Source: Chrysophaeum taylorii
Taxonomy: Eukaryota > Sar > Pelagophyceae > Pelagomonadales > Pelagomonadaceae
DNA: 64,000 nt
Reading direction: 5' to 3'
Assembly (NCBI GenBank): GCA_029834535.1
Contig: JAQMWT010000201.1
Coordinates: 1-64,000 of the forward strand
Positions 3,203 to 61,513 of this stretch are shown in pieces. The notes below the pieces were generated by a model. That model was not told the DNA's origin and searched no databases. It saw nothing but the letters and a program-made list of their open reading frames with translations. The first letter of the stretch is position 1. Each line of letters begins with the position of its first letter. The position numbers and the translations under genes are program-made.

Positions 3203-3531
3203 TGTGGCGTAAGGAGAATTTTAGGGGCTACCTGCGCGCCTTCGAATCCTGGCTCGCCGCTCGCGTCCGGGCCTTGGTGGAGTCACTGGACGAGGATGGC
3301 CGTTCTCCCGCCACACAACCACAAACAACTTCCGTGCATGGTCCTCGCAACTTGAGGATCGGCTGTTGCTTTATGATCAAGGTATTATCGAAACACAGAA
3401 ATCAGGGTGACACATGTCACGGAAAGGAAGATGATGTCATAAAGAAAACTGACATCATCACAACGGAGTAGGGTGCCCTGATAAGGGGGCCCTAGAAGAG
3501 GGTAAGCCTTAAAGCGGGAGTTGCCGCCACA
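3203..3531 (-). repeat. Gypsy-1 left (3') LTR
   Basis: A 329-bp LTR with inverted ends TGTGGCG/CGCCACA. The sequence just outside it on the coding side (3532-3545, GGACTCCCTGG on the plus strand) is shared with Gypsy-3. Read on the minus strand it gives a purine-rich stretch just before the LTR, as expected of a polypurine tract. Confidence 0.9.
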
Positions 3532-4771: not shown

Positions 4772-6835
4772 TCAAGAAATGCGAGGACGGATCAAAAAAT
4801 ATACTAGAAGATACGTCTCGGGACCAGCGCTGGGCAAGGGTCCAAATAAATCCATGCAAAGAACAGCACCATCACCATCGTAGACAGGCTGCTGCAAGAG
4901 TCCAGCTCGTTTCGGCTCAGGCGTACGAGCTTTCTGGCAAACTAAACATTCAGCAATGAAGACTCCAACTTCGTTCGACATGTGAGGCCACCAAAATCCT
5001 TCTTGGATAGCCTGGGCGGTACTGTGACGTCCCATATGACCACCGTTAACCGGAGTGTCATGGTAGAGTCGAATAATGCGCTTGCGCAACGTAGCAGGTG
5101 CTACAATCATCGGGTGCAAATCAGCAGAAATGCGGTAAAGAACGTCTTCAACGACTTCGAATCGTTCGTTCGCTCGGGAACGTCGCGGCGTCTGACCTTG
5201 GGCAATTCGGTAGCGAATATCCTCGCAAGTAGCATCAGATTCTTGCTCACGTGCGATCTCAGCGAGCGTCATATTATCGGGTATCTTAACGATATAATCT
5301 TTGTAAGCGGCTGCGTCCTTGAAGATCTGTGGCTCATCGCGCGCACGGTTCTTCCGACGTTGTCTCGTAGCGTGAGACGTAGCCAATTTCATCGGATCCT
5401 TTTCAGGATCTTCTTCTTCGTCTTCCGGCAGTTCGGTCGTAATAAACGACATTATGAAGTGGCAGCCGGAGGCGGGAATTCCTCGGTCATCAACAGGTCG
5501 GGGAAGCTCTTGGAACACCAAATAAGCGTGGTTCAAAGGTTCTCCAAACTCGTCAGTCTCGTTGACATGGTCTATCGGATTGCGGGAGAGACAGTCAGGG
5601 ATACTCATTCCCGGTGACTTTCCCGGCTTGTAGCGAAGTTCAGGGTCAAAATTGGCGAGGCGCATCGCCCACCGAGCAAGCTGCCCAGACGAGTGCGTCG
5701 CCTTACGTGAAAACGTCAAATTTCGGTGATCGGCCTCCAAAACAGTCCTGTGCCCTTGGATGTAGGCTCGAAAGTGCTCTAGAGAAAGTATAACTGCCAG
5801 CAGCTCTAGCCGACGGGGCTCGTAATTGCGCATCTCCTTCGGCACAGCTCGGCTCCAATATTCAATCACTCGTTCTTCTCGAGTCACTCTTCCGGCACCG
5901 TCCTTGACTTCGACAATCTGGAAGAGATACGCTCCAAGTCCATCCTTGGAAGCATCGGATCGGATCTGAAAAGGCAGATCATAATCGGGGTGGTAGACTC
6001 CTCTGGAATCAACCAAAGCTTCAATAATCGTATCCCAAGCTTTCTGACACTCGGGCGTCCACTCGAACTTTACACCTTCGAGGCATAATCGTCTCAGCGG
6101 TTCCACGATCTTCGAGTAGCCCTTCACATATCGCCGGCAGTAATTACTCATGCCGATGAAAGAGCGTATCTGGGTCTTCGGGGAAGTATTCGGCAAAGTA
6201 CCTGGAATCGGCATCTTCTGCAGTGCTTCCAGCGTCTTCGGATTCGGCTTCAAGCCTTCTGGGGTAGAAATGTGTCCCAGAAATTCTATATCATCCTTGA
6301 GAAGGTGGAACTTCGCGGTTCGACCGCTGTACCCTCTCTGTGCCAAATGACACATCACTTCGATCAAAACTTGTAAATGTCGATGAAGATCGTCAGATCC
6401 CATCATAATATCGTCAACAAACGCAACCAAGTCTTGATACATCCATTTCGAAAGGTCGCTCGCCATTTGCTTGCAGAAAAGAGCTCCGGCCGTCTTCACA
6501 CCTAGAGGTAATCGCAAGAAACTATGAGCGCCAAGTGGGCTAACCATCGTGACAGCGTCTTGCGCTGCCGGGTCAAGACGAAGATTGTGGTATCCCCATC
6601 TAATATCAATGCATGTCCGCCATCGTCTCATGGCGAGAAAAGCTAATGCATCGTCTTGTCGAATGTTCGGCCAACTGTCATTGACCAATTGATTGTCGAG
6701 CTGACGTAAGTCAACTGCTGCACGGACCGCGTTTGACGTTCCAATCACAGCTCCTTTCTTGGGAAGCATCAACACAGGAAAGCCCCAAGCTGAGTTGGCC
6801 GGACGAATGACTACATCCCGACACTACTCACTGAT
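4772..6835 (-). pseudogene. Gypsy-1 reverse transcriptase, RNase H and integrase zinc finger
   Basis: A long minus-strand reading frame (667 codons to 6775). It contains the RT palm with FVDDIMMGSDD, then RNase H with VIEYWSRAVPKEMRNYEPRR and VLEADHRNLTF. Last comes the integrase HHCC finger (LYHDTPVNGGHMGRHST ... CLVCQKAR). Domain order RT-RH-IN is that of Ty3/gypsy. The RT N-terminal end with VLMLPKKGA lies at the right edge. Broken as a whole gene. Confidence 0.93.
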
Positions 6836-7400
6836 CTGCTTGCGGAGACAATCGAGCTTCGCAGGCGTCAGTCGGTCGGGCGTCATCTTAATCGGTCGCG
6901 GATTCGCGTCTTTGGATCGTAGAGATACAGGTGGCGAGTCCACAGGTCTCATAATCGGGTCGAAAAAGGCCCAAGAATATTGCACACAGTGACGGAGCAT
7001 CAGTTTCGCCTCGTCATCTAAGTGCGGATTGTCAGGAATTCCCAGCTCCTGAATAACCTTGTCAACTTCTTCCTTCGTAGGAACTTGAACTTTCATAGCT
7101 TCGTTATCCTTGACATGCTCGGGAGTTTGCGGCAGCGGTGCACCCTCAGCATCGCGCGGCGCATCTTTCCATGGCACATCGAACTTTTTCTCATATTTTA
7201 GTCTCACTTCCGGGTGGCTTTTGTTGATCCTCTCGCCTTTGACACGAACACTCGGCTCGCTCTTAATCTTCGGTTCCCGATCTCGCTCAGGATCTGGCGG
7301 AACATCTAAATTTGGTTGTCGGGGGGGGGCAGCAGAAGAAGCATGAGACGTCCCCGGCTCATCTGTTGCGGGCGGAATCGAGGTTTCCATTTGGTGTGAT
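6824..7400 (-). pseudogene. Gypsy-1 linker between methyltransferase-like domain and RT
   Basis: Charged region with KYEKKFDVPWKDAPRDAEG and KEEVDKVIQELGIPDNPHL, followed by PVSLRSKDANPRPIKM leading into RT. The same order is seen in Gypsy-2 (about 45.07-45.45 kb) and Gypsy-3 (about 50.95-50.43 kb), so it is a family feature. No separate function can be assigned. Confidence 0.75.
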
Positions 7401-7599
7401 CTTGGAGATCATCAGTCGACACCCATCTGACGACACGTGTGCGCGTGTTTAACAGCGGAACTTGTACGTGACGAAGGGTGGTTTCATCAATTTGCAAATA
7501 ATAATCAAACGGTCGGTCTGCAGGACTCAACGCTGACGGCAAAGCTTCGCCGCTCAGATGAAAATCCTTGGTCACAGAATTGTGCAGATCGAGTACTAA

Positions 7600-8425
7600 T
7601 AACGTCATCGTGTCTGGTGGCACGACGGACGCCAAGTGTTTCAACGAGGTAGTCCTGGAGAAGCTGGCCCAATCAAAATCAAGGGGCATCGTCAGCAACT
7701 CCGAAGTCATTTTCAGATTCAGAGATCTGTAATTGGAACGGTGCGGTCCTACACGAAGTGGGACACGCGTAACGGTGTAAGCTGCGTCTGTCGCGGCTCG
7801 TGATTATCCTAAATTGTTCATCTGAAGTAAATGTCGTTCGTCGGCGTAGCCAAGTGCTGCGGCGAACTCTTGCTGCATATTCTTGCAAGTCTTTGGAACT
7901 GCGCGCAAATGGAGCGGATGGCTGGAAACCAACAATCGCACGCGACAGCTCATCAAACTGGGAGTTTTGTCGTAAAAATTGACGACGTACACGTAAGGGT
8001 GCAAACGTGCAACGTAAGAAATAATCGAAGCCTCCTGCTCTATCAACCACATGAAGAAACCCGCCATCTTGCATAATTTCATCGTCCAGTGGGTAGCGGT
8101 GACTCCTTTCCCAACATCTCTGGAGGTCAAGTTGCACAGAGCGGAGTGTACGCCGGGTGGCGACGCGACACACATCGACGACGACCATTCCGCGTAGGGT
8201 AAATAAGATTCGATCAACCGTAAGGTTGTAACATAGCGACCACACAGTGTGTGCTGCACCACAGGAATGTTCGGAAAATTCTTATGGTGGATCTGGTTGG
8301 CGGTGTCCGACGCATCGAGTGCTAGCACGACTCGAAACGACGTTCCACACATTTCGTTGGCTCGTTGGAGACCTAAAGTACTGCCTCCGGCTCCACTGAA
8401 CAACATCCCCACCTTGCGAAAAGTG
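7600..8425 (-). pseudogene. Gypsy-1 C5-cytosine methyltransferase-like domain
   Basis: Minus-strand domain in the element's coding order just before RT. Motif I is GMLFSGAGGSTLGLQRAN, the AdoMet-binding glycine loop of DNA C5-methyltransferases. A motif II-like VVLALDASDTANQIHHKN follows. The motif IV and VI regions (about 8130 and 8040; LIEQE at the latter) and a motif VIII-like stretch at about 7935 are in the expected order. The C-terminal HLASVVPPDTMTLL has the position and pattern of motif X. Fossil copy, broken. The family assignment is by motif order, not by search. Confidence 0.72.
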
Positions 8426-8445
8426 ATTGGAAGCCATTGAACCCT

Positions 8446-8815
8446 TACCCTGATCGCCGACTGCGGTTGCGATGGAGGACGGTGCCTCATGAATCCTGAG
8501 CCTTGCGAGGGCATCCGCCCTCCCGGCGTAGGTTGGCACCTATTCGCCTCCCGGGCGGGCCGGTTGGCAGCCGGAACGTTCGCAGTGGGACGGGGTATGG
8601 CCGGGGGGCGAATACGGAAGGTTATCGACGAGTTGGTTGTCAGTCACATCGCGGTCTCTTCGTCGCATGGCGACAAGCTTGATGGTCACTCTCCGCCGAC
8701 CGACCTTTCGGCGCTCCTCGTCTACAGGCCCGTGATTCCGGGCTGGCTCCTGTCGGTCCGGCCTGGCTCCCATGCTCGGGAGAGGTCTGAAGTTAGTTAG
8801 TTAGTTTTAGTTAGA
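8446..8815 (+). repeat. Dispersed repeat R1, copy 2, inserted in Gypsy-1
   Basis: A ~350-bp insertion absent from the matching place in Gypsy-3 (about 52015). AACCCTT lies on its left (8439) and AACCTT on its right (about 8816), a possible short target duplication. The ends are CGACTGCGGTTGCGATGG and GAAGTTAGTTAGTTAG. It has no coding capacity that I recognise. Confidence 0.8.
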
Positions 8816-11220: not shown

Positions 11221-11390
11221 TATATTGGTGTCGGCCTCCGTCGTATTCGTCGTCGCGCGATCGGCGTCGTCTGTGCCGGCGCGAACTTCGACTGGGGCTC
11301 TTGTTATCTTTGTCTCTCTCTGGCGTCAGTTCGGCAGGTCCTAGAACCTCTGGATCGTCCCCATAGGCGACTGGTAAAGCTCTGAAGTAA

Positions 11391-11750: not shown

Positions 11751-12086
11751 TGTGGCGTAAGGAGAATTTTAGGGGCTACCTGGCGTGCCTTCAAATCCTG
11801 GCTCGCCGCTCGCGTCCGTGCCCTTGGTGGAGTCACTGGACGAGGATGGCCGTTCTCCCGCCACACAACCACAAACAACTTCCGTGCCTGGTCCTCACAA
11901 CTTGAGGATCGGCTGTTGCTTTATGATCAAGGTATATCGAAACACAGAAATCAGGGTGACACATGTCACGGAAAAGGAAGATGATGTCATAAAGAAAACT
12001 GACATCATCACAACGGAGTAGGGTGCCCCTGATAAGGGGGGGCCTAGAAGAGGGGTAAGCCTTAGGAAGCGGGAGTTGCCGCCACA
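11751..12086 (-). repeat. Gypsy-1 right (5') LTR
   Basis: A 336-bp copy of the LTR at 3203-3531, same orientation, about 98% identical apart from small gaps. The minus strand just inside it reads TGGTGGAGGATATGAG, starting with the TGG of a primer-binding site, close to the Gypsy-3 site. Confidence 0.9.
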
Positions 12087-28345: not shown

Positions 28346-28364
28346 GCCTAAAAGGACCAATAGT

Positions 28365-30215: not shown

Positions 30216-30224
30216 GGTACTAAA

Positions 30225-30665
30225 AGGACGACGGACCAACCTGAGGACCAAGGACCAAAGTCGACGAGGACCAGGACCCCCCAAGGACTTAGGACCACCG
30301 AGGACTAGGACCACCGACGACCGAGGACTTAAGGAGGACCGAGGACGCCCGGAGGACCGAGGACTCCCGGAGGACCGACGACTCTCGGAGGACTGAGGAC
30401 CCCTTAAGGACCGAGGACCCCCTAAGGACCGAGGACTCTCGGAGGACCGCGGACCCTAAGGACCGAGGACCCCTAAGGACCGAGGACCGAGGACTCTCGG
30501 AGGACCGAAGACCCCCGGAGGACCGAGGACCACCGAAGGGCCGAGGACTCTCGGAGGACGGAAGTCTCCCGGAGGACCGAGGGGCGGCCGGGGAGTACCG
30601 AGGACTTCCGGCGGACCGAGGAACCTAGACGGGGCTAGGACTCCCGAAGGACCAGGGATTTTAGG
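30225..30665 (-). repeat. 18-bp GGTCCTC minisatellite, block 2 (inverted)
   Basis: The same 18-bp family as block 1 but in the other orientation: GGAGGACCGAGGACTCTC and variants on the plus strand, about 20 units, less regular at its left end. Confidence 0.9.
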
Positions 30666-35352: not shown

Positions 35353-38020
35353 TCTCGTGTTGTTGCTGACGTGCTCACGTCTCTGTCTGCCGTCAAGGTC
35401 GCGTGTCGTAGGAAACACCCCAAATTATACCGCAAGTACCTCGAGATGGACGAGAAGTAGAAGACGACCGATGAGGAGGGCAATAAAGTCTAGTACTATA
35501 CGTTCCAGGTTGCCTTCCCCGCCCACATTGTGTACACGGCCATGTGCGCGAAGGACGCCCGCGCCTTCACGTTACTCCACACCGAGGCGGCGCGACATTT
35601 CCTTGATATGCTCGACCCTCGGTACCGACCTCCGAGTGCGCACGTCTCTCTCAATAAGATCGCGTTCAGCATGCAAGAAGCCGGCAAGGCGAAGTTGATC
35701 AGCATCCAGAAGAAGGTCCATCGCCAAGTCGGAGGGCCGCACTACTCGATCCAGCTCGACGCGTGGACATCCAAAGATTTGAAGCACTCCTACATGGCTC
35801 TTATTCTGACGTTCATGGACATGCAGACCATAGAGAAGGTGCTGACTAAGGAGGGGATCGAGACCCTGCAGGAAGGCGGGGCCAGCCTGCTGGGCGACGA
35901 GGAGCCGGAGGACGTCAATGCTTTCGTCTTCAGGTTGTTCGTCATTGCCGTCGATGCGTCTGGCAAGGACGAACATACGGCAGCCAACATCGCGGACTGG
36001 ATCCTTAGAAAGCTCAACGAGTACTAGCCGAAGTTCGAGTCCTGTGTCAAACCGACGCTCGACGGCGCGTCCAGTGGACAGCCGGCCTTGCGCTGGCTGC
36101 GTAAACCGGCAGAAAGATGCATGGACCACCAGCTGAAGCGCGTCGTCGACTACGCGACTGGCAGTGCCGGCCCCGACATCGAAAACGATCTATTCGCAAC
36201 GCTCATCAAACGCGTCTCGTCGGGAGTCAAAATCGGGAGTCAAAAAGGTGTGGTTTGTGCTGTGCTTTGGAATAGTCAGTTGCGCAGTTGCGCTCCTCGA
36301 CGCGGATTCAAGCCAAGTTCCGCGAGCACCTGGTCGCAAATGGTGTGTCCGAGAAGGAGATGACGATCCCGCCGAAGCCGAATGCGACGCGCTGGTGCGG
36401 CTACAAAAACATGTTCGCCGGCGTATATCGCCTGGTCACCCACTACAACTTGTTCTTGAGAAACGTGCTCCCCGGTATCTCTTCGCGCTCGAAGAAGCGT
36501 AAGCAAGATACCGGACAAAGTCTCGACGAGTTGTACAAGGACATTTCGGACGACGAATACACCGCAGCAATGGAAGAGAGCACCGGGCACAGCGTGTCCA
36601 ACGAGCAGGGTCCGTCGCTCGCGCTAATTGCCGATGAGGAGCAGCAGGCTCTCGAGGCCGAGGCCTTTTTCAACGCTATTGATGCTGCGTCGCGCAAGAT
36701 TGAGGGTGAGTTCCTCTTACAGAGCGCCCTGATTTCCCCCACAGGTACCAAGGACCACACGGACGCCGTGTTCCGAGGCGACCTTTCGAAAGCAGCGATG
36801 GGTCATTCGCCTCCTCACCGTGCCTTTATGACGGTGAAGCGACTCCGGAACCTCTTCGCCGCTAAGCGGCTGAATGTTCCGAGGCGCGATGTCCACAATC
36901 GTCGCTCTCGCTTGGATAACCTGACGCACTCCAACGTCAATAACATGTCGCAGATGATCCAGAACGCTGTAGAGACCGCTCGCATCCAGCTTGACGAACG
37001 CTTCTTCGAAGCGAGCGACAATGTACTGTTGTGCGCGATGCTCGACCCGAGCTTCGACTTGAAAAGAAACACCCAAACCAAGTTACCTACGGAAATTCCG
37101 ATTTTTAGAGAGAGCGATGTCCCGACAGCCCTCCGCATCTACAGTGCGGCTATTGCCCGTCATGCTGACGAGTTGTTGAAGTACGAGCATGACGAGCACG
37201 AGGAGCTGCGACTTGCACACGAGCGTCGCGTCGAAGCCCAGCTCGAATTAACCATTGAAATGCGCGGTGGTGCCATGGCCGGGGTGCAGACGACGCCCAG
37301 AAAACGCCGCCGACGTGAGCGCCGCCAAAGCCCTGGCCTCACGGACGATGATTATGATGACGAGGAGGAGGACGAAGTGGCTGGGGTTGACGACGCCTTG
37401 GTGCAGGAGGCGCTCGGAGGATATGACGACGACGATGACGTCAACCTGACTGAATATGATGATGGAAGCGAAGGCGGCGAGCCCATTGGGCACTCGACCT
37501 TTGTGCCACCGACATCGAATTCGACAGAGCTGCGTCAGTGTAGTCCCCCTCTCACGTGTCATACTCATGAGAACAGCACACAGGCGTGAGAAGGAGAAGG
37601 AACTTTGCGCTTCGCTTCGCGGCTCAAAGAAAGAGCTCGCACGCTATGTCGTCAGTGGCGTGTTTATGGAGGGCGTATTTCGGGCGGCCGTTGCAGACAA
37701 ACCGCCGATCCATGTTGCAGGTCTGGCGGTCATGTAACGCTGTGCTCATTAACTCTTGCGACGTTGAGAGTCTCTTTAGTCTCGCAGGTCGGACGAACAG
37801 CGACCTTCGGTCGAACATCGATCCATAATTCATGGAGGTCCAACTGTTTATTGCCCACAACTGGGATCAGCTCGATGTCGATCCCGATGCTATCTGGCAA
37901 GTGTACGAGGACTTCCGGAAGAGAGGCTCGATGCCTCTCGCCAATGGTGTCGAGACCGACGATGAAATTGACCTCCGTGGAATCGACGGTGATGACGATT
38001 GTGGCGATTTGGATGACTGA
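35353..38020 (+). pseudogene. hAT-2 transposase, catalytic and dimerisation parts
   Basis: Clear hAT features in order are QLDAWTSKDLKHSYMALILT (about 35.75 kb), CMDHQLKRVVDYA (about 36.12 kb, the C-x2-H region) and NATRWCGYKNMF (36.39 kb). LLCAMLDPSFDLK (about 37.03 kb) and NSCDVESLFSLAGRTNSDLR (about 37.75 kb, the C-terminal dimerisation motif) follow. The end is the acidic GVETDDEIDLRGIDGDDDCG with a stop at 38018. Several stops and frame changes break it. A long acidic insert (DDDYDDEEEDEVAG) lies before the dimerisation motif. Confidence 0.85.
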
Positions 38021-38880
38021 GCCAGCTGCTCCTCCGTCGCCCCTCGGTCCTCCTCGGCCGCCCCTCGGTCCTCCTCGGACTTCCGGATGAGAGGCTCGAT
38101 GCCTCTCGCCAGTGGTGTCGAGACGGACGATGAAATTGACCTCCGTGGAATCGACGGTGATGGCGATTGTGGCGATTTGGATGACGAAGCCAGCTGCTCC
38201 TCCGTCGCCCCTCGGTCCTCCTCGGACTTCCGGAAGAGAGGCTCGATGCCTCTCGCCAATGGTGTCGAGACCGACGATGAAATTGACCTCCGTGGAATCG
38301 ACGGTGATGGCGATTGTGGCGATTTGGATGACTGAGCCAGCTGTTCCTCAGCCGCCCCTCGGTCCTCCTCGGACTTCCGGAAGAGAGGCTCGATGCCTCT
38401 CGCCAATGGTGTCGAGACCGACGATGAAATTGACCTCCGTGGAATCGACGGTGATGACGATTGTGGCGATTTGGATGACTGAGCAAGCTGCTCCTCAGCC
38501 GCCCCTCGGTCCTCCTCGGCCGCCCCTCGGTCCTCCTCGGACTTCCGGATGAGAGGCTCGATGCCTCTCGCCAATGGTGTCGAGACCGACGATGAAATTG
38601 ACCTCCGTGGAATCGACGGTGATGGCGATTGTGGCGATTTGGATGACTGAGCCAGCTGTTCCTCAGCCGCCCCTCGGTCCTCCTCGGCCGCCCCTCGGTC
38701 CTCCTCGGACTTCCGGAAGAGAGGCTCGATGCCTCTCGCCAATGGTGTCGAGACCGACGATGAAATTGACCTCCGTGGAATCGACGGTAATGACGATTGT
38801 GGCGATTTGGATGACTGAGCCAGCTGCTCCTCAGCCGCTCCTCGGTCCTCCTCGGCCGCCCCTCGGTCCTCCGGGCGGTC
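37910..38880 (+). repeat. Tandem array of the hAT-2 transposase 3' end
   Basis: Six units start with GACTTCCGGA at 37910, 38078, 38225, 38372, 38540 and 38708. Spacings are 168, 147, 147, 168 and 168 bp, all multiples of 21. The units differ by one 21-bp GCCGCCCCTCGGTCCTCCTC block. Each carries the last ~35 codons of hAT-2 with its TGA, so only the first copy belongs to the transposase gene. The minus strand is open through all six copies (291 codons), a consequence of unit lengths divisible by 3. Confidence 0.95.
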
Positions 38881-39205
38881 CTCCTCGGCCGACCCTCGGT
38901 CCTCCGGAAGTCGTCGGTACTCCTCGGCCGCCCCTCGGCCTCCTTGAGTCCTCGGTCCTCCTTGAGTCCTCGGTCCTCCGGGAGTCCTCGGTCCTCCTCG
39001 AGTCCTCGGTCCTCCGGGAGTCCTCGGTCCTCCTCGAGTCCTCGGTCCTCCTCGAGTCCTCGGTCCTCCGGGAGTCCTCGGTCCTCCTTTAGTCCTCGGT
39101 CCTCCTTAAGTCCTCGGTCCTCCGGGTGTCCTCGGTCCTCCGGGTGTCCTCGGTCCTCCGAGGGTCCTAGTCCTCGGTGGTCCTAAGTCCGTGGGGGTTC
39201 CTGGT
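38880..39205 (+). repeat. 18-bp GGTCCTC minisatellite, block 3
   Basis: Follows the hAT-2 tail array directly. Units such as GGTCCTCCGGGAGTCCTC and GGTCCTCCTCGAGTCCTC, the same 18-bp family as blocks 1 and 2. The Gypsy-2 coding sequence starts shortly after it. Confidence 0.93.
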
Positions 39206-39277
39206 CCTAAGTCCGTGTGGGGTCCTGGTCCTCGTCGAGTTTGGTCCTTGGTCCTCACTTTGGTCCGTGGTCCTGTT

Positions 39278-42162: not shown

Positions 42163-42689
42163 GAAGCGCCAGATTAAGACCTCCGCGCCGAGGGTCGGGG
42201 ATGTGGACGAGAGTCAAGCGGCTCTGGAACAAGAAGAGTCCAGAGCGAACCGACCCCCCGGCACGAAACCGAAACAAGACCCCCGACGGTGGCAGTGTCC
42301 CCCTTTTCCAAAACGAAGAGAAGCCAACCGGCAAGGAGCCCGAGCCACCCGAATAACGACACGAGCATCGGAAAGGCGAGGAACGAAGATTCCCCGACTT
42401 CCCGGGTCGAGAGCGCGAAGAAAGAGGCCGTCGGTTGCAACGGAGAATCCAAGAGCTACCCGCCGATCCGCGAACGCGCCGACAGAGCTGGTGGTCGAGA
42501 GCTCGCCGAGTCTTCGCGGGACGCGCGCACGTATAGATGCCGATGGCAGGAACCGAGGACGAAGCCATGTGCATGCACTCCTCTTTCGCTTCCATCAACG
42601 CCGAAACGACCGACAGAGACCTGCGTGTCCTTAACTGCCTGGAAGCGGTAGCCTGACGTTCATGCCCATCCACGTGTTCAATAGCCGGG

Positions 42690-43140
42690 CGACTCATCGT
42701 ATGCCACGGTGATCGGTGTGGACGGAATGGCCGACGTCACCTACATCTGTCGCGACCTCGCACGCCTAATGCGAAGGCGAGGGATGTTGCTGGATAGCGG
42801 CAAGCTGCCTTTCGAGCGAACGCTCTTCGGATCGGGAAAGAACACGACCTCGATTTCAGAGTGGATCGCCCTGCGAGTATCCGTTTCGGACGAAATGGCC
42901 GTACCGGTAGTCGCAATCGTGGCAGACACCAACAAACAATTTCTGCTGGGAGCCCGCGACATTCGAGCCTTGGGCGCTGTCGTGGATTATCCCCGATACG
43001 AATCTCCTTCTCGCGATCCCAAACAGTTTCCCGATGATGAAGCTCCCGAAGGTGGGGAAATCGTTCGGTCACCCGCCATTCTTTATCGGGCAGCGTACGA
43101 AAGACACCCTATTGTAGCGCCGATTTGCGGTTTTTGAGGG
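42690..43140 (+). pseudogene. Gypsy-2 protease-like domain
   Basis: VIGVDGMADVTYICRDLARL, then ERTLFGSGKNTTSISEW, then VPVVAIVADTNKQFLLGARD. It matches the Gypsy-1 protease-like region, including the DGMA variant. Likely the family's retropepsin. Confidence 0.72.
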
Positions 43141-43146
43141 CAAGCG

Positions 43147-44556
43147 ATGACGCAGAGTCGGAGTCAAGGTGGCAAGAGAGCTCTGCCATCACTGCTCGCT
43201 GAAGAGGATCTCCTCTCGCTGCCTCCTCAGCGAGCTTCGGCCGCCGTAACCTTGGCCGAGGACCCGTCTATGTCGAGTAACGACCCGAAAACGTCCGCGC
43301 CCGAGATCCGAGCGTTCGCAACCGGCTCCCAGCGCATCGACCCCGGTCGAACCCACAACATCCCGGTCAAGCTGAGTAAAGCGCTGAAGCCCGGAGAAGC
43401 CATCGTCGCCACCGCGCCAAGCCTGGATCACCTCGGCGTCGTCGCCGGGACCTGCTCGACGTGTGACCGCTCCGACCCGACCGCGGCCGCAGTGGCCGTG
43501 TCGTCGATGGACGACACGCCGATGTCGATCATCCCAGGTCAAGAGCTCGCGCGGGGGGAAATCATCAACTGCCAAGAAGAAGTTCAGGTGACAACCCCAT
43601 TGCCAAGCGCCGACCCGGGAAACGCGCACGAGAGCGAGCCCGAGTGCACGGCCTCCTTCACGGTCTCGGTCACTAGTTACCCAAATCCAGACCCCGGAGA
43701 ACTAGACGGTCAGGCATTTCGAACGTCTTCAATCAAGCCGCGTCTGGAAGCGCCGAAGGCGCAGTCGCAAGAACCGCCGAAATCCCGGGCCGCCGAACAA
43801 GCGATCATCGACAAGCACCAGGCGCTCTCCTGGATCCCGGAGAACGTGACGCCCGTCGTGATGTCCTTCGGCGGGATCGGAGGTGGCACACAGGGTATCT
43901 GTCGGACCAATGAATGGTTCGGAACCGCGTACAAGGTCGTGCTCGTCATCGACGCATCCGACACCGCCAAAGAAGTCCATGAGAGAAACTCCCCAGGAGT
44001 AAATGTCGTCCAGCACACCCTCGGCGGTCGGTATGAAAAGGTCTTATCTCTGGTCAAAGGTTACCTGCCTGAAAGCCGATGGCCCACAGCACTTTTTGTT
44101 GGCTCGCCACCATGCGTAGATTCCGCCTTGTGCAACCTTACGGCCCGCGACGCCGGGAAAGGGGTCTCCGCGACCAACTGGACTATCAAGCTTTTCCAGC
44201 TCTCCGGAGTCGGACGCTGGATCATCGAGCAGGAACCTTCCATCCGCTCGAAAATCACGCTGCGGCAAGGTTTCATCACCGTCGTCGATCTATGGACGAC
44301 GACGCCGGACCTCATGAGTACCCGTCGGCGCATGATCATCACGAGCTGGCCTCTTCAGCTCATCCGACGTCCCAAAACGTGCGGCACTATTCAGGATACC
44401 TTCGCCGCCAAACTCGGACTCGACCCTTCGCAGCCTCTCATCCAGCGCAACAACTTTGGATGCACGCGAGATGCCGCGGCACCGATATACACCATCACGC
44501 GGAACGCGGTGCGAACAGGACCCACGCCTTCGGACACCAATGCGCTCAGACTATAG
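43147..44556 (+). CDS. Gypsy-2 C5-cytosine methyltransferase-like domain (with leader)
   Basis: A 469-codon frame. After a ~230-residue leader come, in order: MSFGGIGGGTQGI (motif I, AdoMet loop), VVLVIDASDTAKEVHERN (motif II-like), LFVGSPPCVDSALCNL (motif IV with the PPC of the catalytic loop), RWIIEQEPSI (motif VI position, E-Q where E-N-V is usual) and MSTRRRMIITSWP (motif VIII, RxR). PIYTITRNAVRTGP follows. The next frame (44557 on) has HLAAVIPPSAMAYIVLDAHN, patterned like motif X. This is the full order of a DNA C5-methyltransferase. It sits between protease and RT, as in Gypsy-1 and Gypsy-3. Part of a broken element; activity not inferred. Confidence 0.78.
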   Translation: MTQSRSQGGKRALPSLLAEEDLLSLPPQRASAAVTLAEDPSMSSNDPKTSAPEIRAFATGSQRIDPGRTHNIPVKLSKALKPGEAIVATAPSLDHLGVVAGTCSTCDRSDPTAAAVAVSSMDDTPMSIIPGQELARGEIINCQEEVQVTTPLPSADPGNAHESEPECTASFTVSVTSYPNPDPGELDGQAFRTSSIKPRLEAPKAQSQEPPKSRAAEQAIIDKHQALSWIPENVTPVVMSFGGIGGGTQGICRTNEWFGTAYKVVLVIDASDTAKEVHERNSPGVNVVQHTLGGRYEKVLSLVKGYLPESRWPTALFVGSPPCVDSALCNLTARDAGKGVSATNWTIKLFQLSGVGRWIIEQEPSIRSKITLRQGFITVVDLWTTTPDLMSTRRRMIITSWPLQLIRRPKTCGTIQDTFAAKLGLDPSQPLIQRNNFGCTRDAAAPIYTITRNAVRTGPTPSDTNALRL

Positions 44557-46772
44557 ATGCTCGCGGAGGCTCCCACGATGCCGCGCGATCTCGCATGGGG
44601 TAAACTCACCGTCACGGACCGAATGAAGCATCTAGCAGCCGTGATACCCCCGTCCGCCATGGCGTACATAGTCCTCGACGCCCACAACGCGTTGCGACCC
44701 ACGCTCCGCAACATCGGAATCGCGCGCCCGAACGTAGTCGCACCCACCGACGCACCTTCCGAAACATACATCATCGAGCGCGCCCCCTCCGACCACACCC
44801 GCACTGGAGTCACCGCACCCGACCCTCGGAGCGCCCTCGTGAAGGTTTCGACTCGCGTAATCCGCTGGGTGCCCAACCGCGACCTCCAGAACAAAGCGAA
44901 ATGGCAACCGCCGGATCTTCATTTGACCCCTCCGAAGCCCGCTGCATCAGGGACGATGCACTCATCTTCCCAAAGGGGTACCCGCGCGAACAAAAACGAC
45001 GCAATCTCGAAGGCGAACCGAGGTTTGACGAAAAACCAAGGAACCAACAGGCGACAAGGCCAAAGAGCCCGTCCGGTTCAAGTATGAGGAACGGTTTCAC
45101 GTGCCATGGAAAAACGCACCAAGGGACAAAGACGGCGCGCCGCGACCGCAACATCCCAACCATCTGAAAGATAACGAGGCCATAATCGTCAAGAACCCCA
45201 CGAAGGAAGAAGTGGACAAGGTAGTCGACGAGCTAGGCATACCGAACAACTCACACTTGGACGAGGATGCCAAACTCATGTTGGCGCACTGCGTTCGATA
45301 CTCTTGGGCCTTCTTCGGTCCCATCGCGAAGCCCGGGGACCCTCGACCGGTGTCCCTCCGATTTAAACGCGGACCCAACACCCGTCGAGATGTCGCCGTA
45401 CCGACTCGCTCCAGCCAAGATCGAATACCTTCGCAAGCAGATTTCCGAATGGCGCCGAGACGGAGTCGTAAGACCCGCCAACTCCCCTCGGGGGTTCCCG
45501 ATCTTGATGCTTCCGAAGAAAGGGGCAGAGCTCGGGACATCTAACGCTCTACGCGCGGCCGTCGACTCACGTCCGCTCAACGACCAGGTGGTTGAAGACA
45601 GAGGGCCGAACGCGCCGCAAGAGGACGCCATAGCGTTCCGGGCCGGCCGAAAGTACAGGACGCCGATACCGTACCACGCCCAAGCGAACCCCGCGGAGCA
45701 AGTCAATCGACTCTTCAAAGCGTTCCTCCGGGCCTGCCTCGAGGGTCACAGCATCACCGACTGGCCGGCCTTCGTCCGGTACGTGTCGTTTTGCTACAAC
45801 CGAGAGTGCATCCCCGGCACGCAAATCTTCCCATTCGTGTTGCGCCTGAGCCGGCTGCCGATGTTGCCCACGGACTACACCTTGTTGGTTCAGCCTAACC
45901 CCGTTCTGCCGCGACCCCGATCCGACGCGTTGCTGGAAGTCAAGCAGAGCTTCCAGTATTACTCGAAAGTAGTCGTCGAGGCACACGAGCATGCCAAAAA
46001 GACGCAGAAACTCGCTTACGACACCGAGCACGTTGATGTCGAACACAATGTCAATTCGCACGTGTTACTGTACATTCCACAGTCCCTTAACAAGTTGCGA
46101 CCGGAGTGGCGCGGCCCCTTCCTCATCACCGAGCGTCTGTCGCCCGTTTCGTACAAGATCCGATCGGTTTACGGAGCCGCCGAAGAGCGAATCGTGTCAG
46201 TCCAACAGATCACCCCAATGTCGATGCCTCCCACGCTCGATGCCACGATCCGTCGTCCGAGCCCCAGATTCCGCGATGAGTACGAGCGCGGCAAGCTCGC
46301 CATCTTCCGCATCCCGTCGGCCCGAGACCCCGATTGGCGCAAGAAGCTCCACGTCGCCGAGGTTTTCGAGGATTATGATGATGTTCAGGACCGAGTCGCC
46401 CTCCACTTTTACTCCGATCTGGGCCCGCGCGACGACCCATCGTATTTCGACCCGACCTCCCCGCTCGAAGGTCGCACGCTGAGCCCGGAATTCAAGACGG
46501 CACTCGGTCGCAGCTTCACCCGCGCCGAGAAATTAACACCTCAGTACACGCCTTGCGTTACCGACTTCGCCCCGGACGAGATCGACGTCCTGGTTCCCCG
46601 GTTCAAGCTCCAGTGGAAACCAGTTCCTCCTCCGATCGTCCAGCGCGTTAAACATATTCTCGCGCATCGCGCGCGCCGAGAACAAGAACAACTCCAAGCT
46701 CAACAACGCGCTCATCAGACGCGCGCTCAAGTCCCGTCCCCCGACGGTCCGCGCCGAAACTCTCGTCGGTCG
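44557..46772 (+). pseudogene. Gypsy-2 RT start and integrase C-terminal region
   Basis: From about 45.07 kb the linker seen in the other copies (KNPTKEEVDKVVDELGIPNN), then RT N-terminal sequence (PRGFPILMLPKKGAELGTSN). Integrase sequence from SNPAEQV-like HAQANPAEQVNRLFKAFLRA, CYNRECIPGTQIFPFVLRLS, then RPEWRGPFLITERLSPVSY, the GPY/F module. Basic tail after 46.6 kb. Broken element. Confidence 0.85.
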
Positions 46773-49059: not shown

Positions 49060-50640
49060 CATCATCGACAGGGCGAGAGTTCTTGGCACACTAGATACGC
49101 GTGGTTCAAGGGTTCACCAAACTCGTCCGTCTCGATGACATGATCTATAGGATTGCGAGAGAGACAGTCAGGGATACTCATTCCCGGCGACTTCCCTGGT
49201 TTGTAACCCAATTCAGGATCAAAGTTGGCGAGCCGCATCGCCCATCGAGCCAACTGCCCAGACGAGTGCTTCGCCTTTCGTAAAAACGTCAAGTTGCGAT
49301 GATCCGTTTCAAGGATCGTCTTGTGACCTTCGATATAAGAGCGGAAATGCTCAAGAGAAAGAATAACTGCCAGTAGCTCTAGCCGGCGAGGCTCATAGTT
49401 CCGCATCTCTTTCGGCACAGCTCGGCTCCAATACTCAATTACTCGTTCCTCTCGTGTCACCTTGCCGGTTTCGTCCTTGACTTCCACGAGCTGAAAAAGA
49501 TACGCGCCCAGACCATCCTTGGAAGCATCCGAGCGGATCTGAAAAGGAAGATCGTAGTCAGGATGATAAACTCCGCGAGAGTCCACCAAAGCTTCGATGA
49601 TCGTGTCCCATGCCTTTGGCACTCAGGCGTCCACTCAAACTTAACGCCTTCAAGACACAATCGCCTAAGCGGCTCCACAATCTTCGAATAATTCTTCACA
49701 TATCGGCGGCAATAGTTGCTCATGCCAATGAAAGATCGAATCTGGGTCTTCGGGGACGTATTAGGCAACGTACCAGGAATCGGCATCTGCTGCAGCGCTT
49801 CTAACGTCTTGGGATTCAGCTTCAAGCCTAACGGAGTCGAAATATGTCCCAAAAACTCGATTTCATCCTTGAGGAGGTGGAACGTCGAAGTTCGTCCACT
49901 ATATCCTCGCTGCGCTAAATGACACAACACTTCAATCAAAACTTGCAAATGTCGGTGGAGTTCATCCGATCCCATCATAATATCGTCGACAAACGCGACC
50001 AAGTCCTTATACATCCATGTGGACAAATCGCTAGCCATATGCTTACAAAAGAGAGCTCCTGCTGTTTTTACCCCCAGAGGCAAGCGCAAGAAACTATGGG
50101 CTCCAAGTGGACTAACCATCGTAACGGCGTCCTGAGCAGCGGCGTCCAAACGTAGGTTATGATAACCCCATCGAATATCAATGCACGTCCGCCAACGGCG
50201 CATGGCAAGAAAAGCCAAAGCATCATCTTGACGAATATTCGGCCAACTGTCATTGACCAGCTGATCATTGAGCTGACGCAAGTCAACTGCAGCACGAAAA
50301 GCATTCGACGTCCCGGCCTCTGCTCCCTTCTTAGGCAGCATCAGTACAGGGAATCCCCACGGAGAGTTCGCCGGTCGGATGACTCCATCGCGACACCACT
50401 CAGTGATCTGCTTTCTGAGACACTCGAGCTTTGCTGGCGTCAACCTATAAGGCGTCATCTTGATCGGTCGTGGGTTTGCGTCTTTAAATCGTAGAGAAAC
50501 CGGTGGCGAGTCCACGGGTCTCATAATCGGATCAAAGAAAGCCCACGCGTATTGCACGCAGTGGCTCAACATCATCTTCGCATCATCATCCAGATGCGGG
50601 TTGTCGGGAATTCCCTGTTCTCGAACAACCTTTCGACTTC
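49060..50640 (-). pseudogene. Gypsy-3 RT and RNase H
   Basis: RT with VLMLPKKGAEAGTSNAFRAA, CIDIRWGYHNLRL, FLRLPLGVKTAGALF and FVDDIMMGSDEL. RNase H with VIEYWSRAVPKEMRNYEPRR and ILETDHRNLTF. Very close to Gypsy-1. Confidence 0.92.
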
Positions 50641-50965
50641 TTCGTCGGAATTACGACTTTCATCGCTCATTGTCCTTGACGTGCTCGGGAGTCTGCGGTA
50701 ACGGTACACCGTCCGCATCGCGCGGCGCATCCTTCCATGGCACATCGAACTTTTCTTCGTATTTGAACCTCACCTCAGGGTGGCTCTTATTGATCTTTTC
50801 ACCTTTGACGCGCACATTCGGCTCGCTCCTTACTTTCGGCTCCTGTTCAGGTTCAGGATCCGGCGGAACGTCCACTTTTGATTGTCGGGGGCAGCAGAAA
50901 AAGCATGAGCCGTCCCCGGGGCATCTGTTGGATGCGGGAGCATAGAGACTTTTGGCGGTTCCCAT

Positions 50966-52321
50966 TTAGTGGGATCCTGGAGACCATCGTGACACCCACT
51001 TAACGACACGAGTACGCGCATTTAACAGCGGAATCTGTACGCGACGAAAGGTGGTGTCGGAGACTCGCAAATACTGCTCAAAGGATCGATCTGTCGGGCT
51101 CAACGCGGTCGGCAGGACTTCGCCACTTCGGCGGAAACCTCTGGTCGTGGAGTTGTGCAGATCGACTGCCAAAATAGCAAGAGTGTCCGGAGGGACGACA
51201 GACGCTAAATGTTTGAACGAATCTGTCTTATACAAGCTAGCCCAATCATGGTCCACCGGCATCGTGAGCAACTCGGCCGTCATCTCGAGAGTCAAAGGCT
51301 GAGTGTCCGAGCGATGCGGTCCCAAACGAAGAGGAACTCGCGTAGCGGTGTAAGCCATATCTGTTGCTTCTCGGGACGAGCCAAGATTATTCAGCTGGAG
51401 CAGGTGGCGTTCATGAGCGTAACCTAAAGCTGCAGCTAAGTTTTGTTGCATATACACACATGTCTTCGGAGCCTCTTGCGAATGCAGTGGGTGACTGGAA
51501 ACCCACAATCGCACGCGATAGCTCATCAGAGTGGGCGTGATATCATGAAAATTGACGACGTACACGTAAGGGTGTAAGCGCGCTATACAAGAAATAATGG
51601 ACGCCTCCTGTTCAATCAGCCACATCATGAAGCCAGCCATTTTGCTCAGCTCCATCGTCCAGTTAGTGGCCGTAACACCCCTGCCAACATCTCTGGATGT
51701 CAAGTTGCAGAGTGCTGAATGAACGCAGGGTGGAGACGCTATACACATCGACGATGACCATTCCGCTTCAGGCAAATAAGCCTTGATCAATCGGAGGGTC
51801 GAGTCATATCGTCCGCAGAGCGTGTGCTGAACCACAGGTATCTTCGGAAAATTCTTCTGATGAACCTTGTTGGCAGCTGTTGAAGAGTCAAGAGCAAGGA
51901 CGACTCGAAACGACGTCCCGCACAACTCGTTCGCTCGTTGCAGTCCTAAAGTACTTCCTCCGGCGCCGCTATAGAGCATCACAACATTGCGATACGTGAT
52001 CGGCACCCAGTGGACCTTTCCAAACCTTCGGCGAATCTCGCCTTCTGTAACTTCTCGGCATTTCATTTCCTCCTCGTCAGTTCGTCGGTCGAAATCGTCG
52101 TTACCGAACGATGCTTGACGAGAATTTCTTCTTATCGGCAGAAGGAGACGGCCTGCACCGAGCTCAAAAGCATCGGTTCGGGAGCCGCATCGCCTTGAGT
52201 CAGATGGCGACCGAAACAGTGAATGATAGTTAGCCTTGTTAGATTCGGCTTCACCATCCCTCGTTAAATCGTCGACCGTCTCAGCATTCAGCTCGTCATC
52301 AAAACGAACAATATCGCCCAA
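50966..52321 (-). pseudogene. Gypsy-3 C5-cytosine methyltransferase-like domain
   Basis: A 451-codon minus-strand frame. After the protease-side spacer: VMLYSGAGGSTLGLQRAN (motif I), VVLALDSSTAANKVHQKN (motif II-like), MCIASPPCVHSALCNLTS (motif IV with PPC), WLIEQEASI (motif VI position), MSYRVRLWVSSHPL (motif VIII, RxR) and LASVVPPDTLAILAVDLH (motif X-like). This is the longest uninterrupted methyltransferase-like frame of the three copies and closely matches Gypsy-1. Part of a broken element. Confidence 0.78.
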
Positions 52322-53180
52322 AGCAGGACTTCACCTTGAGTAATCACGGTCGGCATCATCGGGTAGAGGATATCCACCACTCGAGCTGCGAACTTATCAT
52401 GATCCTCAGGAGAAGAACACGTTCCATCGACTACCCCAGTTGCTCGTACCCAGAAGACGTAGCAACGAAAACTTGCCCGTTTCCATGGGTCTGAAAGAGC
52501 GACTGGCACGCAGTGCGCCCAGGCTCGACCTTCATCGTGCGCGCAGCATAGGCTATCACTTCGCAGGCATCGCTGTTCGAACTTTGAGAAGGCGACTGGA
52601 GGGACTCCCCAAGTCGTCGAAGCTCCCGCTCGTTTCGGCGGTGGACGCTGGAGGTCTCAATCTTGCACAAGCGAGCGTAGACTCGGTTCTCAACTGTGCT
52701 CAGGCTCTTTTGCATCGCATGGTGCTGTTGCCCATAAACCTGAACTACCACGGGATTGCGCTCGTCATAAGTTGTCTGAACGTCAAAATCGGAGAATCGA
52801 CTCGTCGATCCTGCACCTTTAGCTTCTTGCGCCCATAAGCGACGTGTGCGGAGAAACGCAATGCGATTTCGCGGGTAGTCCACTATGGCTCCCAACACCC
52901 GAATATCGCGCGCTCCCAGCAAAATAGATGATTAGTATCGGCCACAATGGCAACAACTGGAACGGCCACGTCGTGCAAGCGCAATCGCAATGCGACCCAT
53001 TTGTGGATAGTCGTCTTGTTCAATCCTGACCCGTACAGGGCGCTCGACTGGAAGATCGCCCGGTCAAGGATGATGCATCGCTTGCCAGTTTTCGACCATC
53101 CCGACAAATATAGGAGACATCAGCCATTCCATCCACGCCTAAAGTCGTTGCGAACTTCGGCCCGTCGTCGTCTATAAATA
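52322..53180 (-). pseudogene. Gypsy-3 protease-like region
   Basis: VDGMADVSYI (about 53.12 kb), SALYGSGLNKTTIHKWVALR, VPVVAIVADTN, then LGARDIRVLGAIVDYPRNRI. It contains the same DGMA variant and is followed by the spacer (EVIAYAARTMKVEPGRTA). Confidence 0.72.
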
Positions 53181-53989
53181 TGACCAACTATAAACGTAAG
53201 TGTACCAGGGTCCAAACAACCGATGGTGATGGGTGGCTCGATCTTTTCCCCATCGCTCGGCGAAAGTGCAGTGTGATGACATCGTATCTCCGGTTTCGCA
53301 TCGCCCGGCATCTGCATCGTCACCGCTGCCATATCTGGCGTTCCATCTCGCCTCTGAATCTATATGGCGCTCGCCGCTTCGGCTGCTTCCTCATTCCCCA
53401 GTTTCGCTGACAACAAATTCTGACACTTCTCAATCGGAGGCACATAGCATCCTTTATCTCTTCTGGCAATCGTCGTTTCTCGTCCATCAAATCGGACATT
53501 CCGTCAACTTCCTCCATCGGCGCCGCTGTGGTCTGCTCTGCTGCGACCAAAACTGTATCGGCTAAAACATCGGCTAAAACGGTTATAGGGGGGCGTAGGA
53601 AAAAGACGTCGTCCCGACGTCAACTCAAATCTGGCTAACGTCATCATCGTGAACTGCCCTGCAAGACATGCACATTGACGAATGGGGGACACTGGAACCT
53701 GCGGCATGGGTTCGTCGGTCTCGAATCTGAGTCTTCCAGTAGTGCGGAGAATCCAAAGTAGCATCTGATATTGCTTCATACGATGTGAAGGCCACCGAAC
53801 GATCCGAGCGATGGTGGTATTTTGCTCCTGTTGCAAACGATGGCTCGTCACACAGCGACATCGGCAACATCATCGGAGACTCGGGCGGGGCGCGCCGTCG
53901 GGTAAAGACAACTCCCGACGATGGCGGCGCGTCGCATAAAGATTGGAACGCGAAAGTGGCGCTCGAATGTCCCGAACTATCCTGATATC

Positions 53990-57243: not shown

Positions 57244-58252
57244 CAAGGCAGGCCAGTAAGTTCGCCAGTAAGTTCACCTAGCCCCAATCTCTGGATCGCA
57301 CCTGGTGCCGATAAGTTTCCTGGTCAGTAAGTTCACCTAGTCCAATCTCCCCTTAAAGTAAGTTCGGCTTAAGCCCACTCGTGCTCACATCATCTCGAGC
57401 TCGTAGCTGTCGCCTCCGCCAATCTAAGCTGCGATCCGCACACGCCGCTAACCCGCAGTTTACTCTAAAACCCCCAGTAAGCTCACCTGGTCCCATAGTT
57501 CACCTGGTCTACCATTCACCTAGTCCCAATCTCAAACCCCAGTAGATTCACCTGGTCCCAGTAAGTTCACCTACAGTGCGCGTGTAGACGCGGGGGGCTT
57601 ATCGGTATTGCAGCACGTGTGGGGTAGGGTGGAGTCGTCGACTCAGAAGAGCATATCTCAGGGTTGCCGATCGACAGAGAGCCACGTAGAGCTGGACGTG
57701 ACAGAAGACGGGCTTGTGGGCAAGAGGACGCCGGACCTCGCGAGGCGTCTGGTCCTGGCTCTTGTTGATCGTTTGGCGTAGGCGGGCCTTAAGGGATACA
57801 GGTTGGAGGAGCCTCGGTGACAACGACACGATCGATCATGTATCTGGTACCGTTGCAGTGGCCGTGCGACGGGTCGAGGTTGCGGACTTTAAGCTCGCGA
57901 TCAAAGTCAGCATGCCGTTGGTTGTCAGGGAGTTCAAAACTCGACTGTAAAGAGCGAGGCGTCGTCTTCCGACCAACCTTCAGCCGAAAAGAACTCCGAC
58001 GCCTCGTCTCCGGGAAAAAAAGGCCGCGGTCATGCGCGCGTTGTCAGCATCGACAACATCGTTTCGACGGGGCGTGAGAATGGCGCGCTGAATCAGCCGC
58101 CGCGGGTCGTGGAAACAGTCTGCGAGGTCGCCGTAGACGGCTTGGAGGATCAATGCCTGCCTGGCTCGCGGGCCTACCTGATCCTCACCCTAAATCGAGG
58201 GACAAACAGACAAACAGACAAACAGACTGACAGACAGACAGACAGACAAACA
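57244..58252 (-). mobile_element. Helitron unit A (minus strand)
   Basis: Copy of the H1 unit: 3' end CAAGGCAGGCC at 57244, GTAAGTTCACCTGG repeats to about 57580, helicase end motifs at about 57690-57790 (INKSQ, then VFCHVQLYVALCR), the RAILTP region at about 58080, GACA-rich left end at 58200-58252. Its 5' end abuts the 3' end of unit B: head-to-tail. Confidence 0.85.
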
Positions 58253-58998
58253 CAAGTGCAGGCCAGTAAGTTCACCTGGTCCCAGTAAGTTCACCTGGTC
58301 ACTCAGTTCACCTAGTCCCAATCTCAAACCTCAGTAAGTTCACCTGGTCCAGCAAGCTCACCTACAGTGCGCGTGTAGACGCCGGAGGGGGCTTAGCGGT
58401 ATTGCGCAGCACGTGTGGGGTAGGGTGGAGTCGTCGACTCAGAAGAGATCATCGGGTTGCCGATCGACAGAGAGCCACGTAGAGCGGACGTGGCAGAAGA
58501 CGGGCTGGGCAGAGGACGCCGACCGCGGGGCGTCTGCCCTCTGGCTCTTGTTGATCGTTTGGCGTCGGTGGGCCTTAGGGATACAGGTTGGAGGAGCCTC
58601 GGTGACACGACACGATCGATCGTATCTGGTACCGTTGCAGTGGCCGTGCGACGGGTCGAGGTTGCGGAGAAGAAGCTCGCGATCAAAGTCAGCATGCCGT
58701 TGGTTGTCGGGAGTTCAAAACTCGACTCTTGAAGAGCGAGGCGTCGTCTTCCGACCCAACCTAGTCGGCCGAAAAAGAACCCGACGCCGTCTCGGGAAAA
58801 AGGCCGCGGTCATGCGCGCGTTGTCAGCATCGACAACATCGTTTCGACGGGGCGTGAGAATGGCGCGCTGAAAGAGCCGCCGCGGGTCGTGGAAACAGTC
58901 TGCGAGGTCGCCGTAGACGGCTTGGAGGATCAATGCCTGCCTGGCTCGCGGGCCTACCTACCTGATCCTTACCCTAAATCGAGGGACAAACAGACAAA
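58253..58998 (-). mobile_element. Helitron unit B (minus strand)
   Basis: Starts CAAGTGCAGGCCAGTAAG at 58253, immediately after unit A. It is more degraded, with many small gaps in the helicase relic, and ends at the TAGGGTAAGG/GACAAACAGAC region near 58998, lacking the TCCTAACTACTAATCG tip. Confidence 0.82.
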
Positions 58999-59346
58999 CC
59001 CACCCACATCCTTCATGCTCCCCACACACACCGCCCTCTTAGCAGTCGACATTTAAAGACAAACAGACAACCCACCCAGGCCGCCCGATCCCAGCAGGAC
59101 GTCACCCTTCGTCGCACATACGTCCGGCGGCAGCATGCGTACGACCTACGGGCGGGGCCCGTCCTCTCTTCGCCTGCCCCACGCCTCGGCGATGACCATG
59201 ACTAGGTCCCGTGCCATCTCCGCCCGTCAGGCACATCCCCCATACCCCACAAACCCACCCACATCCTTATGCTCCCACACACCCCCTTAGCAGTCGACAT
59301 TTAAAGACAAACAGACAACATGCTCTCCACACACCCCCCTCCTAGG
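58999..59346. repeat. Spacer between oppositely oriented Helitron pairs
   Basis: Contains two copies of a ~75-bp block: CCCACCCACATCCTT-CATGCTCC ... AGCAGTCGACATTTAAAG at 58999-59072 and 59256-59318. GTCGACATTTAAAGACAAACAGAC also recurs just after unit D (61443) and, reversed, next to H2. No gene. Confidence 0.7.
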
Positions 59347-61444: not shown

Positions 61445-61513
61445 TCGACATTTAAAGACAAACAGACAAACAGACAGACAGACAGACAAACATCTGTCGA
61501 ATAGTAGTAAGGA
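61445..61513 (-). repeat. Inverted Helitron 5' tip
   Basis: Reads TCGACATTTAAAGACAAACA ... CTGTCGAATAGTAGTAAGGA, the reverse complement of the canonical Helitron 5' tip with one base missing. It is either a remnant of another minus-strand unit or part of a longer terminal structure. Confidence 0.75.

Follow-up and report, generated by a model that had tools for sequence, protein, structure and literature searches.

The window analysed here, i.e. the first 64,000 nt of contig JAQMWT010000201.1 (C201) of the Chrysophaeum taylorii assembly (70.8 Mb in 697 contigs), contained three Ty3/gypsy retrotransposon copies, Gypsy-1, Gypsy-2 and Gypsy-3, each possessing a C5-cytosine methyltransferase-like domain between the protease and reverse transcriptase (RT) regions (Table 1). 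The core of the domain was exactly 831 nt in all three copies, and the cores were homologous. A preliminary description of the window had listed methyltransferase motifs in order at this position; the strings were found literally on in-frame reading of the three copies, the E-Q, RxR and PP end occurring in a common order and at a common site in the three copies, and SPPC was read in both copies for which it had been claimed, Gypsy-2 and Gypsy-3, with SPPG in Gypsy-1. Two main subfamilies were distinguished, A (Gypsy-2) and B (Gypsy-1 and Gypsy-3), and the cores of the genomic relatives L026 (A) and L025 (B) were of the same length and shared 133 of 277 residues in register, with no gap. Because of the same site and the ungapped identity, the single capture proposed earlier, before Gypsy-2 separated from Gypsy-1 and Gypsy-3, was upheld.

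Profile-profile comparison of the gypsy domain with 120 Dnmt2-family proteins, the sole C5 family compared as a set, gave a probability of 97% (E 5.5e-11) from motif I to motif IV, the alignment ending on the PPC of motif IV, and none of 100 column shuffles equalled the score of this region. A chance motif match was rejected for motifs I to IV on these two grounds, and the profile search suggested in the preliminary description thus returned a match that included the catalytic Cys and was not limited to the glycine loop. PHROG families named "DNA methyltransferase" were matched by all five gypsy sequences tried, with E values from 9e-8 for the best to 0.06 for the weakest. With Pfam family PF00145, Gypsy-3 (E 8e-4) and Gypsy-1 (E 1.7e-3) were both under the family cut-off and the Gypsy-2 core alone had no Pfam match; L025 exceeded the cut-off (24.6 versus 22 bits), and 13 of the 19 members of alignment A2 matched at E<=1 (best 2.1e-6), DUF4964 and DUF7328 being the non-methyltransferase matches in that scan. 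The GxGG of motif I was present in 28 of 31 copies and lost in three, an acidic strand of motif II was also observed, and the Cys of motif IV was present in 29 and lost in two. All 31 copies had the motif VI Glu at the expected spacing, followed by Q (30 copies) or R (one copy) instead of forming ENV, as well as the RxR of motif VIII. Judged from these profiles, the gypsy domain is homologous to C5-methyltransferases over motifs I to IV.

Selection was estimated as the ratio of nonsynonymous to synonymous substitution rates (dN/dS, NG86), in which pairs are not independent and within-group values are ratios of means. For the domain, the within-group values were 0.22 (A copies with the deletion described below), 0.19 (undeleted A), 0.18 (B1) and 0.20 (B2), versus 0.36, 0.34, 0.48 and 0.28, respectively, for the adjacent linker; the undeleted A figures hold one misplaced row, L028, in which the deletion junction is present (46-125). 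When the B2 copies L025, L059 and Gypsy-1 were compared with Gypsy-3, dN/dS was 0.09, 0.07 and 0.07 for the domain, 0.06 in all three for the RT part, and 0.30 and 0.34 for gag-protease with the third pair saturated, all being rough ratios since dS was 1.6-2.1. Among the three B2 copies the ranges were 0.26-0.37 (domain), 0.13-0.22 (RT part) and 0.52-0.63 (gag-protease). The constraint on the domain approaches that on RT in long-range comparisons and is weaker in short-range ones, and the purifying selection between subgroups (0.07-0.09) agrees with the long retention proposed earlier.

Genome searches with Gypsy-3 and Gypsy-2 gave at least 93 matches each, in overlapping sets that include pieces of the same copy and near-identical contig pairs; these represent dozens of copies, and a single odd copy was therefore rejected. 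L059 (contig C5) had a single uninterrupted frame, at least 3057 codons long, encoding protease, domain, RT, ribonuclease H (RNase H) and integrase, in the order typical of Ty3/gypsy, although the protease was recognised by DTG...LGGRDI alone, without a Pfam match; DTG...LGGRD is a pattern that we take to mark a protease. At this site L026 had WEAG versus DTG in L025. A long frame, putatively gag, lay ahead of the protease and had no match to a Pfam gag family. In L025 (3489-3577), protease and domain were in one frame and RT, RNase H and integrase in another, and the two frames overlapped around ten consecutive C; this arrangement, compared with the single frame of L059, reflects either frameshifting or slippage in the C run. 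The four long terminal repeats (LTRs) of L025 and Gypsy-1 shared TGTGGCG...CGCCACA ends; no clear target duplication was seen at L025. Gypsy-1 was rearranged, part of its 3' coding region (3923-4304) being repeated in inverted orientation at 11353-11728, beside the 5' LTR, where L025 has gag; in addition, 8454-8804 was an inverted copy (94%) of 1291-1636. A B-type gypsy fragment, from between protease and methyltransferase domain, was located at 27737-28124 of the window. Relatives outside this genome were not found at E<=0.001 among 7998 and 7996 candidates scored in a protein collection, other pelagophyte genomes not being searched; none of the 11 and 13 pattern matches in viral and prokaryote contigs, respectively, nor of the 10 in a set of C5 enzymes from viral contigs, was a relative.

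Gypsy-2 represented a deleted form in which the RT core, RNase H and a portion of the integrase were missing and the methyltransferase-like domain remained. A junction probe matched in full length at no fewer than 12 loci including Gypsy-2 (11 others) among the best 150 of 1204 candidates, and partly across the junction in two more (C266 and C384); the A-type domain adjoined the junction on 11 of the 12 contigs, C253 being the exception. These copies, as read without complete RT and integrase, are best taken as non-autonomous. Deleted and undeleted copies were intermixed in the tree, a pattern suggestive of recombination in the course of reverse transcription. Domain dN/dS was 0.44-0.74 among the closely related deleted copies Gypsy-2, L027, L045 and L048 (six pairs; copies chosen after seeing the tree) and 0.20-0.47 among another set of close deleted copies, L026, L046 and L053. 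Retention of the domain in the deleted form as proof of a need in cis was dropped in view of both sets of values and the mixed tree, and nothing here amounts to good evidence that this form depends on an enzyme of its own.

A second domain was found in Ty1/copia elements. The PF00145 genome scan gave at least 57 matches, scored among the best 123 of 474 candidates, two of which were the host genes, Dnmt2-like and DNMT5-like; all 19 distinct non-host places examined (20 loci, one place twice) carried a domain like that of the copia exemplar L011. The integrase (rve) match in L011 was under cut-off (E 0.006). Of five copia loci scanned with Pfam, L011, L013 and L016 had RVT_2 in their frames; the frames scanned in L014 and L020, which were shorter, had none. 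Repeats of L011 fit for LTRs were at 60459-60666 and 69888-70083 of C96 (89.4% identity). A search with the copia domain gave at least 152 genome matches, in which a copy may be represented by several pieces. PCQ and EN were kept in 14 of 14 aligned sequences, which had been chosen for open frames, and dN/dS over 12 loci (ratios of means) was 0.16 for the domain, 0.14 for integrase, 0.14 for RT and 0.20 for protease plus linker; the copia domain is under purifying selection. Its profile matched that of Dnmt2 (P 4e-4) from motif II to motif VIII and showed no similarity to the gypsy domain (P 0.79). A common origin of the two domains was rejected on that account, though such divergence could hide one; host DNMT5 was likewise rejected as the source, since neither the gypsy (P 0.27) nor the copia (P 0.24) profile matched this single sequence. 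A Protein Data Bank (PDB) search with the copia domain as a single sequence found nothing, and its structure model was poor (pLDDT 32) and not used. In the window, the RT of a copia copy (22256-23161) was only 34% identical to that of L011, and this copy had no match to the copia methyltransferase domain at E<=1. It is a tentative proposal, falling somewhat short of even odds, that two LTR superfamilies independently placed different C5-methyltransferases directly downstream of the protease, where both are maintained by selection near the RT/integrase level.

Taken together, the reading preferred here, with a probability of about 0.6, is that a Ty3/gypsy lineage acquired a C5-cytosine methyltransferase, which it retains as a polyprotein domain acting on the element's own nucleic acid. 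Its firm parts are the homology over motifs I to IV, the position, the open frames, the many copies and the purifying selection. In the mechanism proposed, the domain would work inside the virus-like particle, where motif I would bind S-adenosylmethionine and the PPC cysteine would attack cytosine; the element's own nucleic acid, most likely cDNA and less likely RNA, would be methylated before or during integration, and the new copy might thereby persist despite host surveillance or become established in tolerated chromatin.

Several observations weigh against this reading. The window copies are decayed, Gypsy-2 by an in-frame TAG and Gypsy-1 by PPG for PPC, a stop and an upstream insertion of 370 bp. 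At short range, the constraint on the domain among B2 copies is weaker than that on RT, a range at which post-insertion decay counts for more. Profile support is absent beyond motif IV and motif VIII (35 and 42 of 100 shuffles as high) as well as for the motif VI match (26 of 100), and the labels VI, VIII and X lack it. Accordingly, the motif list of the preliminary description stood for motifs I to IV by profile, while for VI to X there was residue conservation without statistical support; no Dnmt2-like similarity was detected by profile after motif IV, so that full-length likeness was not seen, and past this motif the resemblance consists of conserved residues, their spacing and a fold model of low confidence. 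In the PDB search with the L025 core as a single sequence, GGA1 chains (E 0.07) ranked over Dnmt2 (E 0.71), all insignificant. Finally, the CpG decay of a lasting deaminating mark was not seen in the gypsy copies, in which CpG was not depleted: the CpG observed/expected ratio was 1.16-1.34 in six gypsy stretches versus 1.43 and 1.33 in two host stretches, and transitions per site were 0.065 at CpG versus 0.056 at GpC, with transversions of 0.033 and 0.026 (83 pairs, not independent). The earlier suggestion that the element marks its own copies was therefore not borne out as regards a lasting CpG mark. In copia the ratio was about 1.0 and the TG and CA values were 1.10-1.19, in copies with the domain (six read) as well as in the window copy without a domain match, so that the lower ratio does not follow the domain.

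The absence of a sign of CpG decay in DNA would also suit an RNA C5-methyltransferase modifying the element RNA or the tRNA primer rather than cDNA. Two chains of Dnmt2, which acts on tRNA C38, topped the PDB profile search, insignificantly (E 0.059 and 0.067; other insignificant PDB rows were WzzB, Cry1Ac and GGA1), the Dnmt2 profile match was strong, and RNA methylation is proposed for SymbioLINE-Dnmt in PMC5890265 itself, in the part available. However, the Dnmt2 affinity may be a sampling effect of the sole C5 profile compared, motifs I to IV cannot separate RNA from DNA substrates, and the similarity ends before the target-recognition part, so this alternative is considered unlikely. Still less likely is a non-catalytic role within pol, in which the fold is kept for structure or for binding nucleic acid: the unusual E-Q of motif VI, the diverged C-terminal half and the copies without the catalytic Cys or GxGG would fit it, but the Cys in 29 of 31 copies and the Glu and RxR in all 31 are kept in subfamilies with about half of their residues in common. 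That the domain is another Rossmann methyltransferase, e.g. of the N6-adenine type, resembling C5 enzymes in its first half, is very improbable; the two highest Foldseek rows for the poor gypsy-domain model were METTL16 chains, whereas the methyltransferase families from sequence and profile searches were all C5 or PHROGs named only "DNA methyltransferase", with no N6-adenine family at E<=1, and the Dnmt2 profile match includes the PPC of motif IV.

Apart from these elements, the window contained mutually similar repeat arrays at 28362-28956, 30222-30656 and 37909-39208, with TCCTCGG-like units read at 39000, and a repeat of about 0.8-1 kb, present in both orientations and about 86-93% identical, at 15088-16121, 26829-27726, 57383-58999 and 59366-61447.

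Table 1. Features of the gypsy copies in the window, their genomic relatives and the related host and copia loci
Feature	Position	Strand	Remarks
Gypsy-1 LTR, 3' side	3203..3531	-	TGTGGCG...CGCCACA ends
Gypsy-1 RT, RNase H, integrase zinc-binding part	4961..7327	-	
Gypsy-1 C5-methyltransferase-like core	7582..8412	-	277 codons
Gypsy-1 core stop	7804-7806	-	
Gypsy-1 SPPG	8146-8166	-	catalytic Cys replaced
Gypsy-1 insertion	8444..8813		just upstream of domain, versus L025
Gypsy-1 LTR, 5' side	11751..12086	-	matched stretch 95.6% identical to the 3'-side LTR
Gypsy-2 protease-region remnant	42685..43134	+	GVDGMADV from 42715, LGARDI from 42946; no Pfam match
Gypsy-2 C5-methyltransferase-like core	43855..44685	+	277 codons
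Gypsy-2 motif I	43855-43884	+	
Gypsy-2 motif IV SPPC	44101-44121	+	
Gypsy-2 VI-like IIEQEP	44221-44238	+	
Gypsy-2 VIII-like STRRRM	44317-44334	+	
Gypsy-2 in-frame TAG	44554-44556	+	inside core
Gypsy-2 RT N-terminal part	45053..45668	+	two frames; tblastn with P0005, 69% identity
Gypsy-2 deletion junction	45420..45794	+	RT N-part fused in frame to integrase-core C-part
Gypsy-3 RT and RNase H	49077..50890	-	
Gypsy-3 C5-methyltransferase-like core	51155..51985	-	277 codons
Gypsy-3 LTLEMTAELLTMP	51257-51295	-	
Gypsy-3 SYRVRL	51506-51523	-	
Gypsy-3 LIEQEA	51602-51619	-	
Gypsy-3 SPPC	51719-51739	-	
Gypsy-3 motif I	51956-51985	-	
Gypsy-3 protease region	52434..53347	-	upstream of domain, several frames; GVDGMADV at 53139, LGARDI at 52919
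L025 LTRs	C109 172387-172735 and 182531-182856		90.8% identical
L059 frame (codons), protease and domain	DTG 1024; LGGRDI 1126; domain from 1444		
L059 frame (codons), RT to integrase	RVT_1 1997-2161; RNase H 2256-2368; H2C2 2552-2610; rve 2628-2721		
Copia family exemplar	L011:3097-8952 (G000:C96) and 18 further places		domain with PCQ, ENV between protease and integrase
L011 frame (codons)	C5-methyltransferase 349-475; rve 1016-1110; RVT_2 1686-1933		1952 codons
Host Dnmt2-like gene	L018, on C634 (102313 bases)		
Host DNMT5-like gene	L017:3968-9901 (G000:C621)		PF00145 plus SNF2; long open frame

The usual view of retrotransposons is that cytosine methylation is directed at them. The precedents mentioned in the preliminary description, from a charophyte alga and a dinoflagellate, are in print: the available part of PMC5890265 describes C5-methyltransferases in Symbiodinium LINE and DIRS elements and in a Klebsormidium gypsy Pol, under purifying selection, and CG methylation by the SymbioDIRS enzyme in yeast. 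According to this text, KnitGypsy-Dnmt3 of Klebsormidium nitens resembles the elements described here in being an LTR gypsy with a C5-methyltransferase in the Pol ORF and several copies, and in constraint on the domain (Ka/Ks < 0.2); it is from a charophyte, is Dnmt3 by tree and has a DIRS-like repeat arrangement, whereas the present elements are from a stramenopile, have LTRs paired in direct orientation (L025 and Gypsy-1) and E-Q in motif VI, and were compared with the Dnmt2 profile only. SymbioDIRS-Dnmt3 and SymbioLINE-Dnmt are likewise retrotransposon-borne C5-methyltransferases with several families per genome, but in DIRS and LINE elements, not Ty3/gypsy or Ty1/copia, and SymbioLINE-Dnmt shows CG depletion, unlike the gypsy copies here (PMC5890265, same part). 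PMC12344493 lists Copia and DIRS elements as carriers of a DNMT3 with a citation of PMC5890265, the text of which speaks of Gypsy; in the sections available, the Copia mention is one sentence, with no pelagophyte and no element described. The part of PMC6338049 available discusses accessory domains with the same citation. Another stramenopile transposon with a DNA methyltransferase, the Ectocarpus Sola1 ParB-methyltransferase protein, is a DNA transposon case with a separate gene of the N4-cytosine or N6-adenine type, as far as the text of PMC12477816 available states. The host Dnmt2/TRDMT1 (L018) shares the motif I-IV similarity and is a free-standing tRNA enzyme, unlike the gypsy domain. As given in the accessible part of PMC9998398, DNMT5a occurs in pelagophytes and DNMT3 is absent from most stramenopiles except diatoms. 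Words for transposons, retrotransposons, repeats or gypsy do not appear in the available text of the Chrysophaeum genome paper (PMC10366177), and no report of such pelagophyte elements was found among the titles and abstracts listed in searches of the open-access PMC literature, subscription papers being outside this scope. Thus, the kind of element is already known, while the pelagophyte lineage and the double occurrence in gypsy and copia are new.

A third major algal lineage and two unrelated LTR superfamilies in one genome constitute a natural replicate of the capture, and the gypsy and copia carriers offer a test bed for the role of the enzyme in the element. If the independent placement in the two superfamilies is true, methylating cytosine in the element's own nucleic acid, inside the particle, would be a retrotransposon strategy that arose convergently and was selected repeatedly, with RNA or an RNA-DNA hybrid perhaps as its target.

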